From Corallococcus carmarthensis (GTDB lineage Bacteria; Myxococcota; Myxococcia; Myxococcales; Myxococcaceae), in assembly GCF_003611695.1 (NCBI RefSeq), contig NZ_RAWE01000021.1:1-64000 (forward strand): DNA of 64,000 nt, in the 5' to 3' direction. Of the stretch, positions 55,193 to 61,716 are shown in pieces. The notes beneath the pieces are model-generated. The model ran no database searches, was not told where the DNA came from, and saw only the letters and a program-made list of their open reading frames with translations. Within the stretch, counting starts at the first letter, position 1, and each line of letters opens with the position of its first letter. The translations under genes and the position numbers were made by a program.

Positions 55193-55445
55193 ACTCCAAC
55201 GCTCTGCACAGGAGAGCGGGCGCGCAATTCCTCCCATCGGTTGGTGGGCGGGCAGGGAGGCAGGCGCTCCCCGTGGACCCGGCATCTGATTTTCCGGCCA
55301 CACCCTGGAAGGGGTGCCCCGTCCGTCCGCCTGCCCTGGGTGCGGAAGGGGGATGGGTGCATGGGATGGCGGTTGGTTCGCGGAAGCGGCGTCCCCACAT
55401 TGTTCGGGCCCCAGCACTTGCCGTACCCGGCTGGAGGAGGCACCC

Positions 55446-55931
55446 ATGGCCGACAAGTCCGAAGTGGCTCGCCTGCACAGCCTGGCCCAGCTCGATGCCG
55501 ACGCCGTGGGCGCGTATGACGTGGCCATCGCCCGCATCGGGCCGGCCCTGGTTCGTGAGCGCCTCAACAGCTTCCGCGCGGACCACCTGCGCCACGTGCA
55601 GGACCTCAACACGCTCATCCGTCACTTCGGAGGTGAACCGGTGACGCTGCGCCCGGACCTGAAGGGCACGGCGATGAAGGGCCTGACGGCCATGACGGGG
55701 CTGATGGGAACGGAGGCCACGCTGTGGGCCATGCTCGGCAACGAGGAGCTGTTCGACCGGGCCTATGAGCTGGCGCTCCAGTTCGAGTGGTCCCCGGAGG
55801 TGAAGGTCCTCATCCGCCAGCACCGCGAGGACGAGCGGCGTCACGGCACGTGGATCCGCGACGCGGTGCGCACCCGTCCCTGGGCGGAGAGCCGCATGCC
55901 CTTCATGGACACCGCCGAAATGGGCGCCTGA
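55446..55931 (+). CDS. DUF2383 ferritin-like protein (PA2169 family)
   Basis: 161 aa from ATG 55446, with GGAGGAGG upstream. It is an all-helical ferritin-like bundle: ARLHSLAQLDADAVGAYDVAI, LVRERLNSFRADHLRHVQDL, and EVKVLIRQHREDERRHGTWI, where Asp/Glu and His residues on the helices (DADAVGAY, ADHLRH, REDERRH) could bind two metals. The central segment is rich in Gly, Met and Leu (KGLTAMTGLMGTEATLWAML). Members of this family are often stress-induced; the biochemical role is not established. It is divergent from ligD, with 253 nt between, and precedes hutF by 44 nt. Confidence 0.85.
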   Translation: MADKSEVARLHSLAQLDADAVGAYDVAIARIGPALVRERLNSFRADHLRHVQDLNTLIRHFGGEPVTLRPDLKGTAMKGLTAMTGLMGTEATLWAMLGNEELFDRAYELALQFEWSPEVKVLIRQHREDERRHGTWIRDAVRTRPWAESRMPFMDTAEMGA

Positions 55932-55975
55932 AGCCGCTACCGCGCGTCGTGGCGAACTGGCATACGCTGCCGCGC

Positions 55976-57358
55976 GTGAGCGACATCACTGTCTACCAAC
56001 CCGACTTCCTCTTCGCGGAAGGACGTTTCCACGAAGGCCGTGCGCTGGCGGTGGGCGCGGATGGCCGTGTGCTCGGCGCGGTGCCCGAAGGGGCGCGCGT
56101 GGAGCGGCTCGCGGGGCGGGCGCTGTTGCCGGGGCTCGTCAACGGACACTCGCACGCGTTCCAGCGGCTCATCCGCGGACGCACTGAATACGTGGCGTCC
56201 GCCGGCGGGAAGGATGACTTCTGGTCCTGGCGCGAGGCGATGTACCACGCCGCGGAGGTGCTCACGCCCGAGGACATCCACGTCGCCTCCCGGCAGGTGT
56301 TCCTGGAGATGGCGCTCGCGGGCATCACCACGGTGGGCGAGTTCCACTACCTGCACCACCAGCCGGATGGGACGCCCTACGCGGACCGCAACGCGCTGGC
56401 GCACGCGGTCATCCGCGCGGCCACGGACGTGGGACTGCGCATCTGTCTGCTGCGGGTGGGCTACGCGCGCGCGGGCTTCAACGCGCCCTCGAACCCGCGT
56501 CAGCGCCGCTTCATCGACGCGGACGTGGACACGTTCCTATCCACCACGGAGGCGCTGTCCCACGCGACGCGCGGTGACCCGCGGGTGAACGTGGGGCTCG
56601 CGCCGCACAGCGTGCGCGCGGTGTCTCGGGACTGGCTGACGCAGGTGGCCCGCACCGCGCCCGCCAGCATGCCCATCCACATGCACGTGGCGGAGCAGCC
56701 GAAGGAGATTGAGGCGTGCCTCGCGGAGCACGGCCGCCGTCCGGTGGAGCTGGTGTCGGACGTGGGCCTGCTGGGGCCGCGCTTCACGGCCGTGCACGGC
56801 GTGCACCTGACGGAAGCCGAGGTGACGCTGCTGGGCCGGGCGCAGGCCACGGTGTGCGCGTGCCCGTCCACGGAGCGCAACCTGGGGGACGGCATCGTGC
56901 CGGCGGACGCGCTGGTGAAGGCCGGGGCGCGCGTGAGCTTCGGCTCGGACAGCCAGACGGTGGTGGACCTGCTGGACGAAGCGCGGCAGCTGGAGCAGCA
57001 CCTGCGCCTGGTGCGGCTGCGCCGGGCGGTGCTGGACCCGGGGACGGGGACGCTGGACGGGCTGTCGGCGCGGCTCTTCGACATGGCCACGGTGCAGGGC
57101 GCGCGAAGCCTGGGGATGGGCACGGGCACGCTTTCAGCGGGGTCGCCCGCGGACTTCTTCACCGTGGACCTGCACCACCCGTCGCTGGTGGGCGCGGGAC
57201 CCACGTCGCTGCTTCCGGGCATCGTCTTCGGAGCGGCGGGAGGGGCGGTGCGCGAGGTGGCGGTGGCGGGCCGGCTCATGGTCCGGGACGGCCGGCATCC
57301 GCTGACGGATGAGAGCGGCCGGGCCTTCCAGCAGCTCGCCCGGCGCCTCTACCCATAG
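55976..57358 (+). CDS. hutF: Formimidoylglutamate deiminase
   Basis: 460 aa from GTG 55976 (VSDITVYQPDFLF); the frame is open through the preceding gene but homology begins here. This is an amidohydrolase of the HutF type: NGHSHAFQRLIRGRTE binds zinc, FHYLHHQPDG and GLAPHSVRAVSRDWL supply later histidines, IHMHVAEQPKEIEA holds the next ligand, HGVHLTEAEV and FGSDSQTVVDLLDE the last. It converts N-formimidoyl-glutamate to N-formyl-glutamate plus ammonia in histidine breakdown. No other hut gene (hutH, hutU, hutI, hutG) is in the window. The usual family length is about 450. The RBS is weak. Confidence 0.92.
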   Translation: MSDITVYQPDFLFAEGRFHEGRALAVGADGRVLGAVPEGARVERLAGRALLPGLVNGHSHAFQRLIRGRTEYVASAGGKDDFWSWREAMYHAAEVLTPEDIHVASRQVFLEMALAGITTVGEFHYLHHQPDGTPYADRNALAHAVIRAATDVGLRICLLRVGYARAGFNAPSNPRQRRFIDADVDTFLSTTEALSHATRGDPRVNVGLAPHSVRAVSRDWLTQVARTAPASMPIHMHVAEQPKEIEACLAEHGRRPVELVSDVGLLGPRFTAVHGVHLTEAEVTLLGRAQATVCACPSTERNLGDGIVPADALVKAGARVSFGSDSQTVVDLLDEARQLEQHLRLVRLRRAVLDPGTGTLDGLSARLFDMATVQGARSLGMGTGTLSAGSPADFFTVDLHHPSLVGAGPTSLLPGIVFGAAGGAVREVAVAGRLMVRDGRHPLTDESGRAFQQLARRLYP

Positions 57359-57364
57359 GGTTGG

Positions 57365-57401
57365 GGCACGGTTCGATATGCCGTGCCGGAGCGGGACGTT
57401 G
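57365..57401 (+). promoter_or_regulatory. Promoter/operator element of the first ChaN-like gene
   Basis: A 7-bp inverted repeat (GGCACGG 57365-57371, CCGTGCC 57381-57387) overlaps CGATATGCC (57374-57382), which is followed after 13 nt by ACGTTG (57396-57401). The same CGATATGCC-N13-ACGTTG arrangement lies before the second ChaN-like gene at an identical 66 nt from the ATG. It likely includes a -10 region and binding site. The inverted repeat might alternatively terminate hutF. Confidence 0.5.
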
Positions 57402-57439
57402 ACGAAGCGCGACGTGGGGTTTTCCACGGGAGGATGTGG

Positions 57440-58918
57440 ATGCGCTCAAGATTCTGGCTGTGGTTGGTGATGTTGATGGGGCTGGCGGTGGGGGGCTGCG
57501 CCGGGCGTCAGGAACTGGAGACGCCGGACTACGAGGCCATCTACGACCTGCCGCTGGAGGAGATGTGGCCGTCGGTCCGTGAGTACTTCACGGACGCGAA
57601 CCTGCCCTACCGCGAGGACCGGGGCAGCCTGGTGCTGGAGACCGAATGGAAGCAGGAGTTCGGCGGCTCGAAGATCGCGGGCTACTGGCACCGCTACATG
57701 GTCATCGGCAAGCGGGAGACGCCGACGAAGAGCAAGCTGTGGATCATCCGCATCACCAAGACGGTGAACAAGGCGCTGGCGCAGCCCGGCCGGCAGTTGG
57801 ATTGGGGCGCAGGGCGGGGGCTCGGCGGACCTCCCAGTGAGCGCGGCTCGGGGGCGCCGGGTGATGCGTCCTCGAGCACCGCTTACGGTGTCTCCATCGA
57901 GGATGACGAGGACCGGCTGGCCTTCCCGGTGGGAGAGAACGCCTTCTACGTGGACTCCGGTCAGGGCACGCGAGACCTGACCATGGAGTGGCGGGTCTTC
58001 CGGGGCATCATGCCGAAGCTCGCGAAGCAGCAGGCGGTGAGCGCCGAGCAGCAGGTGGCGAAGGCACCGGGCGCGAAGGAAGCCCCGGCGTTCACCGAGT
58101 GCGGCCAGTCCATCCTCGGCCTGAAGAAGCAGGCGAAGGCGGGCGGGGTGATGCTGCTGGGTGAACTGCACGGCACGCAGGAGGTGCCGCGCTTCATCGC
58201 GCAGTCCGTGTGCCAGCTCGTCACGTCCGGCATGCCGGTGACGGTGGGCCTGGAGCTGCCCGTGGAGAACGAGGCACGCATCGCCACGTTCCTCCAGAGC
58301 CAGGGCGGCGAGGTGGATTGGCTCAAGCTGATGGAGGCCCCGTTCTGGCGCAGCCCGTATCCGGACGGGCGTGGCAGCGAAGCGGTGGCGAACATGCTGG
58401 AGCAGCTGCGCCAGCTGCGAGCGCAGGGGCTGGACGTGGCGGTGTTCGTCTATGACCACCCGAAGCTGTCGGGCCAGAAGCGCGAGGACGCGCTGACGCA
58501 GACGGTGCTGGCGCAGGTGAAGGCGTCACCGCGGCGCTTCCACCTGGTGGTGAGCGGCAACGTCCATCCGCGCACGGCGAAGGGGTTGCCGTGGGACAAG
58601 CAGTACCGGCCCATGGGCTACCTGCTGAAGGACCAGCTCGACGACGTCACGTCGTTGGACATGGCCTACGACAGCGGCACGGCGTGGATCTGCGCGGCGG
58701 ATGAGAAGGGCCGGAAGCTGGACTGCGGCGTGAAGGAGGCGAAGGGGAAGGACAACGGCGACCGCTTCTTCGTCCACGCCTGGGACTCGCCCAACAAGGA
58801 GGGCTACCACGGGGTCTTCTACGTAGGCCACGTGACGGCCTCCGAGCCCGCCATCCGCAAGGGGCTGGGCAACCCGGACGCGGCGCCCGCTCCGGAGGAG
58901 TCCACGTCCGGCTCGTAA
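57440..58918 (+). CDS. ChaN/Tiki-like lipoprotein, tandem copy 1
   Basis: 492 aa. ATG 57440 is preferred over ATG 57434 because GGGAGG then sits 6 nt upstream. The lipobox is LAVGGC (Cys20). The N-terminal domain (about 25-210) has EAIYDLPLEEMWPSVREYF and YWHRYMVIGKRETPT, and is unassigned. The C-terminal domain (about 220-480) resembles ChaN/TIKI-superfamily proteins: VMLLGELHGTQEVPRF, VGLELPVENEARI, FWRSPYPDGRGS, VFVYDHP, HLVVSGNVHPRT. Family members bind haem or act as metal-dependent hydrolases. This copy has an extra Gly/Ser-rich insert (near 120-145) absent from copy 2. It is about 148 nt from the second copy. The role in this organism is unknown. Confidence 0.82.
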   Translation: MRSRFWLWLVMLMGLAVGGCAGRQELETPDYEAIYDLPLEEMWPSVREYFTDANLPYREDRGSLVLETEWKQEFGGSKIAGYWHRYMVIGKRETPTKSKLWIIRITKTVNKALAQPGRQLDWGAGRGLGGPPSERGSGAPGDASSSTAYGVSIEDDEDRLAFPVGENAFYVDSGQGTRDLTMEWRVFRGIMPKLAKQQAVSAEQQVAKAPGAKEAPAFTECGQSILGLKKQAKAGGVMLLGELHGTQEVPRFIAQSVCQLVTSGMPVTVGLELPVENEARIATFLQSQGGEVDWLKLMEAPFWRSPYPDGRGSEAVANMLEQLRQLRAQGLDVAVFVYDHPKLSGQKREDALTQTVLAQVKASPRRFHLVVSGNVHPRTAKGLPWDKQYRPMGYLLKDQLDDVTSLDMAYDSGTAWICAADEKGRKLDCGVKEAKGKDNGDRFFVHAWDSPNKEGYHGVFYVGHVTASEPAIRKGLGNPDAAPAPEESTSGS

Positions 58919-59000
58919 CAGGCACCCGAGGGGGATGACAGGGGCCGTGCGAGTCACCCGGGACGGTGGCCCGCGCGGCCTCTGGCTTTTCGCGGGCACA

Positions 59001-59028
59001 CGATATGCCCACCGCTTACGCAACGTTG
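59001..59028 (+). promoter_or_regulatory. Promoter/operator element of the second ChaN-like gene
   Basis: CGATATGCC (59001-59009) followed after 13 nt by ACGTTG (59023-59028), 66 nt before the ATG, identical in order and distance to the element in front of copy 1. The local palindrome GGGCA-N7-TGCCC (58994-59010) surrounds CGATA. Conservation against otherwise diverged leader sequence marks it as functional. Confidence 0.5.
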
Positions 59029-59066
59029 TTCAGCGCATCGCGGAATGAGAGGGAGGCACCTTGCGG

Positions 59067-60476
59067 ATGCGCTCGACGTTGAACGTGGCATGGCTGGCGT
59101 TGCTCCTGGCGGTGGGCTGCGCCGGGCGTCAGGAGCTGGAGACGCCGGACTACGAGGCCATCTACGACGTGCCGCTGGAGGAGATGTGGCCGTCGGTCCG
59201 TGAGTACTTCACGGACGCGAACCTGCCCTACCGCGAGGACCGGGGCAGCCTGGTGCTGGAGACCGAGTGGAAGCAGGAGTTCGGCGGCTCGAAGATCGCG
59301 GGCTACTGGCACCGCTACATGGTCATCGGCAAGCGGGAGACGCCGACGAAGAGCAAGCTGTGGATCACCCGCATCACCAAGTCCGTGAACAAGACATTGT
59401 CGCAGCCCGGCAAGGAGCTGGACTGGGGCGTCTTCCGGGGGCCGGGTGGCAATGACGGGGTTGCCCTGAGCCCGGAAGACGACGCGGCCCGGCTGGCCTT
59501 CCCGGTGGGAGAGAACGCGTTCTACATGGAGTCAGGGCAGGGCACGCGGGACCTGACCATGGAGTGGCGGGTGTTCCGGGGCGTCATGCCCAAGCTCGCG
59601 AAGAAGCAGCCGGTGAGCGCACAGCCGCAGGTGGCGAAACCCGCGCCGGCGTTCACCGAGTGCGGCCAGTCCATCCTCGGGCTGAAGAAGCAGGCGAAGG
59701 CGGGTGGGGTGATGCTGCTGGGTGAGCTGCACGGCACGCGGGAGGTGCCGCGCTTCATCGCGCAGACGGTGTGCCAGCTCGTCACCTCCGGCATGCCGGT
59801 GACGGTGGGCCTGGAGCTGCCGGTGGAGAACGAAGAGCGCATCACCGCGTTCCTCCAGAGTCAGGGCGGTGAGGTGGACTGGCTCAAGCTGATGGAAGCC
59901 CCGTTCTGGCGCAGCCCGTACCCGGATGGCCGGGGCAGCGAAGCGGTGGCGAACATGCTGGAGCAGCTGCGCCAGCTGCGAGCGCAGGGGCTGGACGTGG
60001 CGGTGTTCGTCTACGACCACCCGAAGCTGTCGGGGCAGAAGCGAGAAGACGCGCTGACGCAGACGGTGCAGGCGCAGGTGAAGGCGAAGCCAGAGCGCTT
60101 CCATCTGGTGGTGAGCGGCAACATCCACTCACGCACCGCGAAGGGGCTGCCGTGGGACGCGCAGTACATGCCCATGGGCTACCTGCTGAAGGACCAGCTC
60201 GACGACGTCACGTCGTTGGACATGGCCTACGACAGCGGCACGGCGTGGATCTGCGCGGCGAACAAGCAAAGCAACAAGCTGGACTGCGGCGTGAAGGAAA
60301 CGAAGGGCAAGGACAACGGCGACCGCTTCTTCGTGCACGCCTGGAGCTCGCCGAACCTGGAGGGCTACCACGGCGTCTTCTACGTGGGCCACGTGACGGC
60401 CTCTGAACCGGCCATCCTCAAGGGACTGGGCAACCCGGACGCGGCGCCCGTATCGGGTTCCACGTCCGGCCTGTAA
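59067..60476 (+). CDS. ChaN/Tiki-like lipoprotein, tandem copy 2
   Basis: 469 aa from ATG 59067; TTG 59061 is an alternative, nearer to GGGAGG. The lipobox is LLAVGC (Cys18). It is colinear with copy 1 and most stretches are identical, including GYWHRYMVIGKRETPTKSK, GELHGTREVPRF, PYPDGRGSEAVANMLEQL, and VFVYDHPKLSGQKREDALTQ. Differences cluster in the signal peptide, the linker before GENAFY (shorter here) and the extreme C-terminus. The high similarity, including the leader, points to a recent tandem duplication. Both copies keep the Glu/His motif and so are probably active. It is followed by a hairpin and argE. Confidence 0.82.
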   Translation: MRSTLNVAWLALLLAVGCAGRQELETPDYEAIYDVPLEEMWPSVREYFTDANLPYREDRGSLVLETEWKQEFGGSKIAGYWHRYMVIGKRETPTKSKLWITRITKSVNKTLSQPGKELDWGVFRGPGGNDGVALSPEDDAARLAFPVGENAFYMESGQGTRDLTMEWRVFRGVMPKLAKKQPVSAQPQVAKPAPAFTECGQSILGLKKQAKAGGVMLLGELHGTREVPRFIAQTVCQLVTSGMPVTVGLELPVENEERITAFLQSQGGEVDWLKLMEAPFWRSPYPDGRGSEAVANMLEQLRQLRAQGLDVAVFVYDHPKLSGQKREDALTQTVQAQVKAKPERFHLVVSGNIHSRTAKGLPWDAQYMPMGYLLKDQLDDVTSLDMAYDSGTAWICAANKQSNKLDCGVKETKGKDNGDRFFVHAWSSPNLEGYHGVFYVGHVTASEPAILKGLGNPDAAPVSGSTSGL

Positions 60477-60573: not shown

Positions 60574-61716
60574 ATGAGCGACACGCTGCCCGCGCTGCGG
60601 GCCACCCTGGCGGAACTGGTGGCGCTGGACACCACGTCCTCGCGCCCCAACGCGCCCCTCATCGACTACGCCCAGGCGAGGCTGGAGGCCGCGGGCTTCT
60701 CCGCCGAGCGCCAGCACTACACCGACGACGCGGGCGTGGCGAAGGTGAACCTGGTGGCGCGCAAGGGCGACGCCGACCGCGCCGCGCTGGCCCTGGTGGG
60801 CCACTCCGACTGCGTGCCCTACGATGCCGCCTGGACGGACGCGCTGCGCCTCACCGAACGCGACGGCAAGCTGTACGGCCGCGGCGCCTGTGACACCAAG
60901 GGCTTCATCGCCTGCGCGCTGCACACCGCCACGCGCAAGGACCTGCCGAAGCTGGACGCGCCGCTGCTCGTCATCCTCACCGCGGACGAAGAGGTGGGGC
61001 TCGTGGGCGCGAAGAAGCTGGTGGCCGCGGGCCTGGGCCGCGCGAAGCACGCCATCGTCGGTGAGCCCACGCGCCTCATCCCCGTGCGCGCCAACAAGGG
61101 CTACTGCCTGGCGGAGGTGGAGGTGCTGGGCAAGGAAGGGCACAGCGCGTACCCGGAGCTGGGCGCGTCCGCCATCTTCCGCGCCGGCCGTTTCCTGCAC
61201 CGGCTGGAGACGCTGGCCCACACCGTCCTGCGCGAGGACCGCGACGAGGGCTTCCAGCCGCCCTTCACCACCGTGAACGTGGGCCTCATCCAGGGCGGCA
61301 AGGCGAAGAACGTCCTGCCCGGTTCCTGCCGCTTCACCGTGGAGTGGCGCCCCATCCCCGGCCAGGCCGCCGAGCGCGTCCCGGAGATGATGGAGCACAT
61401 CCGCCAGGAGCTCACCCGCGACGAGCCCGCCTACGAGGCGCGCATCAAGGTGCTGCGCATGGACCGGGGCGTCCACACGCGCGGCGACGCGGACGTGGTG
61501 CGCTTCCTGGAAGAGGTCAGCGGCAACGCGTCCGAAACGGTGTCCTTCGGCACGGAGGCCCCTCAACTCACGGAGCTGGGCGCGGAGGCCGTGGTGTTCG
61601 GCCCCGGCGACATCCGCGTCGCGCACCAGACGGGGGAGTTCGTCCCCATGGAGGACCTGGTGCGCTGCGAGTCCGCGCTCACGCAGGCCGTGGCCCGCTT
61701 CTGCACGGGCCGCTGA
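60574..61716 (+). CDS. argE: Acetylornithine deacetylase
   Basis: 380 aa; GGAGG lies 7 nt before ATG 60574. It is an M20 metallopeptidase: VGHSDCVPYD and GRGACDTKGFIAC hold the first metal ligands and catalytic Asp, LTADEEVGLVG the general-base Glu pair, IVGEPTRLIPV another ligand, and GTEAPQLTELGAEAVVFGPG the final one. The dimerisation insert begins near VEVLGKEGHSAYPELG. The size and motifs fit ArgE, which removes acetate from N-acetylornithine in arginine synthesis. Other arg genes are not adjacent, so a related M20 amidohydrolase cannot be excluded. Confidence 0.88.
   Translation: MSDTLPALRATLAELVALDTTSSRPNAPLIDYAQARLEAAGFSAERQHYTDDAGVAKVNLVARKGDADRAALALVGHSDCVPYDAAWTDALRLTERDGKLYGRGACDTKGFIACALHTATRKDLPKLDAPLLVILTADEEVGLVGAKKLVAAGLGRAKHAIVGEPTRLIPVRANKGYCLAEVEVLGKEGHSAYPELGASAIFRAGRFLHRLETLAHTVLREDRDEGFQPPFTTVNVGLIQGGKAKNVLPGSCRFTVEWRPIPGQAAERVPEMMEHIRQELTRDEPAYEARIKVLRMDRGVHTRGDADVVRFLEEVSGNASETVSFGTEAPQLTELGAEAVVFGPGDIRVAHQTGEFVPMEDLVRCESALTQAVARFCTGR

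Follow-up and report, generated by a model that had tools for sequence, protein, structure and literature searches.

Over the first 64,000 nucleotides (nt) of Corallococcus carmarthensis contig NZ_RAWE01000021.1 (assembly GCF_003611695.1), hereafter the window, two adjacent genes, copy A and copy B, encode predicted lipoproteins of the same architecture. This report concerns the short two-block element that precedes each of them and the extracytoplasmic function (ECF) sigma factor that probably reads it. Both genes were reported in a first-pass annotation of this DNA and are confirmed here, with the GELHGT motif intact in A and B. The two proteins share 88% identity, and alternative in-frame starts lie at ATG 57434 (A) and TTG 59061 (B). 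Features are collected in Table 1.

Table 1. Features of the gene pair, its predicted promoters and domains, the candidate sigma factor gene and the flanking genes
Feature	Location	Strand	Details
Copy A	57440..58918	+	492-residue lipoprotein; ATG start; lipobox Cys20; helix-grip (BamC-like) domain, linker, TIKI/Ere-like domain
Copy B	59067..60476	+	469-residue lipoprotein; ATG start; lipobox Cys18; architecture as A, linker shorter
Copy A promoter (predicted)	57374..57400	+	-35 CGATAT 57374-57379, spacer 17, -10 CGTT 57397-57400; from pattern and conservation
Copy B promoter (predicted)	59001..59027	+	-35 CGATAT 59001-59006, spacer 17, -10 CGTT 59024-59027; from pattern and conservation
N-terminal helix-grip domain of A, linker inserted	57521..58039	+	residues 28-200; likeness to BamC N domain 2yh6
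TIKI/Ere-like domain of A	58094..58831	+	residues 219-464; E242, H244, E272, H376
ECF sigma gene	G000:C222:163684-164295	-	TIGR02937, 59.6 bits (cut-off 42.9)
hutF (formimidoylglutamate deiminase)	55883..57358	+	TIGR02022, 587 bits (cut-off 413); conserved upstream neighbour (synteny); start codon uncertain
argE-type acetylornithine deacetylase	60574..61716	+	TIGR01892, 492.6 bits (cut-off 297.7); conserved downstream neighbour (synteny)

As the first-pass annotation described, each leader carries CGATATGCC-N13-ACGTTG, beginning at 57374 (A) and 59001 (B), exactly 66 nt ahead of either ATG. Comparison of the two leaders revealed identity at 15/15 bases of the element and at 12/51 of the remaining positions. 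The genome search proposed for further exact sites was run and returned none beyond these leaders, both matches in the 10.79 Mb genome lying before A and B. This exact form was rejected as the selected unit, being present in 1 of 16 genus genomes; the core kept across relatives is CGATAT-N16/17-CGTT.

To survey this core, 40 family copies from 19 genomes (20 fetched stretches plus the window) were examined for a strict form, CGATA[TC]-N16/17-CGTT at most 140 nt upstream, with the expectation taken from dinucleotide-chain shuffles. The strict element was observed upstream of 33/40 copies, in Corallococcus and other Myxococcaceae, against 0.005 expected. A looser form within 130 nt preceded 45 of 52 copies in 26 named loci, whose Corallococcus members overlap with the 40-copy set. 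Outside Corallococcus (loci L153-L168, from Myxococcus, Pyxidicoccus, Citreicoccus, Hyalangium, Archangium and others) a manual count gave 27/31 copies, one of the 31 having a leader of just 25 nt. Across 35 lipoprotein and 23 sigma leaders, the CGATAT and CGTT blocks come close to the maximum information content, while spacer and flanks carry little. Absence from orthologues had been named as grounds for abandoning the promoter reading; the element is present in them, including those of other genera, which bears out the claim that it is under selection, and it is very probably the shared promoter. Two records stood out during the survey: L163 (BNCN01000002.1) is titled Comamonas sp. KCTC 72670 and holds a Myxococcus-like copy, so that the name looks wrong, and in L046 (G006:C720) the element is repeated identically in inverted orientation where a contig ends, which is probably an artefact of assembly.

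The C. carmarthensis genome holds eight matches to CGATAT-N16/17-CGTT: those of A and B, one at a sigma factor gene (contig C222), one at a MarR-type regulator gene (C277), and those on C17, C111, C331 and C443. The C17 match belongs to a small secreted protein and that on C111 to a lipoprotein labelled kelch-like from reading its repeats, and the C331 and C443 matches sit within coding sequence. The MarR-type match (G000:C277:61797-61822, minus strand, locus L096; leader longer than 100 nt) was found by its matched letters in 15/16 genus genomes and also in G032 (L190); the gene that follows it was read in L079, L086, L087, L090, L096 and L105. The C331 match (G000:C331:3319-3345, minus strand, locus L061) lies in the coding end of a gene, is conserved in most genus genomes and stands about 100 nt ahead of the next ATG, that of an apparently exported protein; it may be chance coding sequence or an intragenic promoter.

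The sigma factor encoded on C222 consists of the sigma2 and sigma4 regions only; in Pfam, region 4 scores above its cut-off and region 2 below (14.9 vs 24.0 bits). The element was found upstream in 23/23 orthologues of this gene (50-100% identity), each leader having CGTT as its -10 block, and in none of the four unrelated ECF genes that aligned (three further ECF loci could not be aligned and were left unscored). The open reading frame (ORF) directly 3' of the sigma gene encodes an anti-sigma factor of the zf-HC2 type (PF13490, 25.9 vs 22.2 bits) with one hydrophobic stretch, and the ORF after that an apparently exported protein with no significant Pfam match. Autoregulated ECF systems with zf-HC2 anti-sigma factors share the two-domain sigma, the adjacent anti-sigma with a single hydrophobic segment and the CGT in the -10; by contrast, the -35 here is of GATAT type rather than AAC, AAC/CGT being given as the hallmark in PMC8103513. 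In Myxococcus xanthus, for which about 45 ECF sigmas are cited (PMC12288465), CarQ-CarR likewise pairs an ECF sigma with a membrane anti-sigma and is described as transcribing its own operon and unlinked targets (PMC12288465, PMC8156234). CarQ, however, responds to light and drives carotenoid genes, whereas the C222 system has a CGATAT -35, an anti-sigma of zf-HC2 type and predicted targets that are mostly exported proteins.

Each of the 16 genus genomes contained 5-10 matches to CGATAT-N16/17-CGTT, compared with 1 in total for the reversed control. When the spacer between CGATATG and CGTTG was left free from 2 to 32, spacers 15 and 16 together accounted for 42 of the 76 genus matches, and the remaining 34 were scattered over the 29 other spacers. 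Outside the genus, 19 same-family genomes were searched with CGATATG-N15/16-CGTT, and the sigma was counted as present at E below 1e-30, a threshold chosen after a gap (~1e-37 to 1e-11) was visible. We observed 28 matches in 8 sigma-bearing genomes (G018 3, G022 4, G023 5, G026 3, G028 2, G029 2, G032 9, G033 0) versus 1 in 11 genomes without the sigma, which lay inside an ORF of G030; in G033 the sigma leader carries CGATAC, which this pattern misses. Scattered matches also occur in more distant genomes of the order, and the contrast is therefore claimed within the family only.

Twenty stretches were then available around matches in these 19 outside-genus genomes, 19 of them from sigma-bearing genomes. 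For 16 of these 19 matches the next gene encodes an exported protein, as judged from N-termini read by eye; the others were L190, followed by the MarR-type gene, and L197 and L200, each without a fitting gene. A mechanical lipobox count was not used, as it was too loose (166/569 background genes) and missed evident lipoproteins. With a profile of the N-terminal domain of A and B, whose E-values refer to a set of about 30 proteins, lipoproteins with the domain in free-standing form were found after the element in L183, L187 and L194, lipoproteins combining the domain with a TIKI-like one (BamC-TIKI lipoproteins) in L184 and L188, and N-domain proteins also in Corallococcus loci L097-L099, L106 and L108. 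Different members of the same families thus carry the element in different genera, for which shared leader ancestry alone is insufficient. A DUF1028-type protein follows the element in several species (L100, L103, L191); that of L100 matches PF06267 at 127.8 bits as well as a peptidoglycan-binding domain.

From this evidence we consider it probable, at roughly 85%, that A and B are separate units, each with its own ECF-sigma promoter, and that the reader is most likely the autoregulated C222 sigma. Several observations weigh against this. The strict element is absent from 7/40 copies (G001_1, G007_3, G008_1, G010_2, G015_2, G029_1 and G032_1), among them the near-misses G008_1 (TGATAT), G001_1 and G010_2 (ending CATT) and G015_2 (ending CCTT), with G007_3 beginning 10 nt past the preceding gene. 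The element was likewise absent before the distant relatives in the same genome (L005-L008) and before family genes first found in G018, G022, G023, G028 and G055. Conserved coding-end matches such as that on C331 indicate that some matches are not clear promoters. The -35 block CGATA[TC] contains no AAC, a feature common in ECF promoters that PMC8103513 describes as an early hallmark, no longer defining. Beyond the genus, the sigma and the lipoproteins tend to co-occur (8 shared, of 9 and 10 among 43 genomes; hypergeometric 2.7e-6), a weak indication that is confounded by phylogeny and dependent on the same post hoc threshold as the match counts. Finally, the C222 sigma was detected in 13 of the 16 genus genomes searched and not in G002, G003 and G015.

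That last gap bears on an alternative, in which a different sigma uses the element as its promoter and the C222 gene is merely one of that sigma's targets. The link to C222 is indeed one of genomic association, and in three genus genomes the element is present although no C222 sigma was detected. In all three, however, the contig breaks at the locus: the sigma-flanking genes are split between contigs, and in G002 and G003 one of them sits at the end of its contig that faces the gap, a pattern that suggests gaps in the assembly. The C. carmarthensis copy is itself at a contig break, with its upstream neighbour on C67. Since the element accompanies every sigma orthologue down to 50% identity and its matches nearly vanish from family genomes lacking the sigma, we regard another reader as unlikely.

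The structure model of A (mean pLDDT, the predicted local distance difference test, 62.6; 67.4 for the N domain folded alone) has a C-terminal part with the parallel-sheet core of the TIKI/Ere fold. A sequence-profile search of solved structures gave 0 matches. In the model, the C-terminal part is nearest to erythromycin-esterase-type hydrolases: EreC (6xcq; Z 14.5, root-mean-square deviation (rmsd) 3.5, 212 residues aligned) and BcR135 (3b55; Z 13.9-14.0), followed by RRSP (12.8), HopBA1 (11.8; Foldseek E 2e-5) and ChaN (2g5g; 10.9). E242, H244, E272 and H376, a Glu-x-His/Glu/His set, are invariant in 43/43 aligned rows. After the first Glu they are spaced 2, 30 and 134 in A versus 2, 30 and 130 in RRSP, a protein in which each of the four 2His/2Glu residues is stated to be required (PMC6254334); spacing and predicted fold suggest that the two sets are equivalent. 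A and B may be envelope-located hydrolases. They share with this superfamily the predicted core and the 2His/2Glu-type set, and differ from it in being lipoproteins with a BamC-like N domain. Among the BamC-TIKI relatives in the same genome, L005, L006 and L008 have lost Glu-x-His (GEQLGS, GDPLGT, ADPMGT), carry no element and are possible pseudoenzymes; L007 retains the motif.

The first-pass annotation had taken A and B for ChaN/Tiki-like lipoproteins, and one could suppose that they are haem-uptake lipoproteins and that the sigma answers to iron or haem. Their weak similarity to PF04187 (0.037 and 0.00028), the ChaN structure alignment and the fact that L007 passes the PF04187 cut-off (39.2 vs 27.7 bits) favour this. 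Yet A and B themselves stay below that curated gathering cut-off (14.4 and 21.4 vs 27.7 bits), EreC and BcR135 align better, and the Glu-x-His/Glu/His set does not vary, which leaves the haem reading improbable.

The N-terminal domain was said to have no known relative, a statement that no longer holds, as free-standing sequence relatives occur in the same genome and its predicted fold most resembles the N domain of BamC (2yh6; Foldseek E 2e-4, Z 9.6, rmsd 3.6, 100 residues aligned). Other helix-grip folds reached Z 7-9. The domain matched no Pfam family at E up to 5, the BamC model included; the modelled relation is one of fold likeness, not proof of descent. BamC (2yh6, 2laf) is also a lipoprotein, but has two helix-grip domains, whereas A has one followed by a TIKI-like domain.

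The first-pass annotation had allowed for either promoter or operator, and the element could also be an operator or a leader-RNA signal, with transcription from another start. Two blocks at a fixed 16-17 nt gap, one of them CGTT, fit an ECF promoter instead. In orthologues the distance from element to ATG is 45-67 nt, apart from two outliers (82 and 106, probable start errors), and in most genus sigma orthologues it exceeds 100 nt, unlike what a leader-RNA element would show; we hold this explanation to be very unlikely. The equal 66 nt of A and B is therefore no conserved feature, and the argument for selection once drawn from it falls away.

The tandem array appears to be old. Throughout the genus, wherever the contig reaches, hutF and argE flank one to three copies, as they also do in Citreicoccus. 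Third-position identity between A and B is 95.6% in the N domain, 71.1% over 113-215 (the linker) and 85% in the C domain, and the same contrast between well-matched folded cores and a poorly matched linker holds within genomes generally. In FastTree trees of the C domain, same-genome copies cluster in G002, G004, G006, G007 (copies 1 and 2 only), G008, G009, G012 and G013, with supports of 0.66-1.0. In C. carmarthensis itself, the C domain of B pairs with G003_2 (0.90); only the N-domain tree places A next to B, and it does so without support. The linker tree groups mainly by position across species, splitting positions 1 and 2, with G010_1 as an exception. Since linkers sort by position and catalytic domains largely by genome, the data point to an old array whose cores have been homogenised by gene conversion; repeated independent duplication is an alternative that the shared position-specific linkers speak against. 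The recent duplication proposed at first is thus rejected on third-position patterns, linker trees and genus-wide synteny. With it goes, as scarcely credible, the idea that the matching elements are just copied DNA, since despite the 88% protein identity and the near-identical N-domain third positions, the flanking leader has diverged, copies are spread genus-wide with linkers sorted by position, and the element is also seen upstream of distant relatives from other genera.

In summary, the sequence itself shows a conserved element associated with the sigma gene, a conversion-like pattern and an intact catalytic set, and from these we infer that the C222 sigma reads the element under control of the zf-HC2 anti-sigma. 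Each gene would be preceded by a promoter made of CGATAT (-35), a 16-17 nt spacer and CGTT (-10). The sigma would be kept inactive by the membrane anti-sigma encoded just downstream until an envelope signal frees it, whereupon it would drive its own operon together with genes whose products are mostly exported. Among these, lipoproteins built on a BamC-like helix-grip domain, some of them also bearing a TIKI/Ere-like hydrolase domain, would be prominent. A and B may be two such putative enzymes, lipidated at Cys20 and Cys18, in which gene conversion would keep the folded cores alike and leave the leaders, signal peptides, linkers and tails to drift.

More speculatively, and with considerable doubt, this could be a dedicated envelope-stress sigma circuit of the Myxococcaceae with a non-canonical GATAT -35, having BamC-fold lipoproteins, some with TIKI/Ere hydrolase domains, as its core output and serving outer-membrane quality control or remodelling, analogous to sigma-E and the β-barrel assembly machinery (BAM) but built from different parts. 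On the sigma-promoter reading itself, a little-known envelope enzyme family would be tied to one conserved control circuit. Predicted BamC-fold lipoproteins occur here in a group for which BamC is reported absent from the BAM complex, a 2012 survey stating that no evidence for it was seen in delta-proteobacteria (PMC3359395). Starting from a motif in raw sequence, the analysis arrives at a predicted sigma with its anti-sigma and at a list of targets conserved across this family of predatory soil bacteria. We found no report of a C222-sigma regulon in open-licence PubMed Central papers; the proposed promoter grammar and regulon are open to test in M. xanthus.

Directly ahead of hutF, the window also encodes a ferritin-like DUF2383 protein at 55314-55931 (PF09537, 31.0 vs 30.8 bits).

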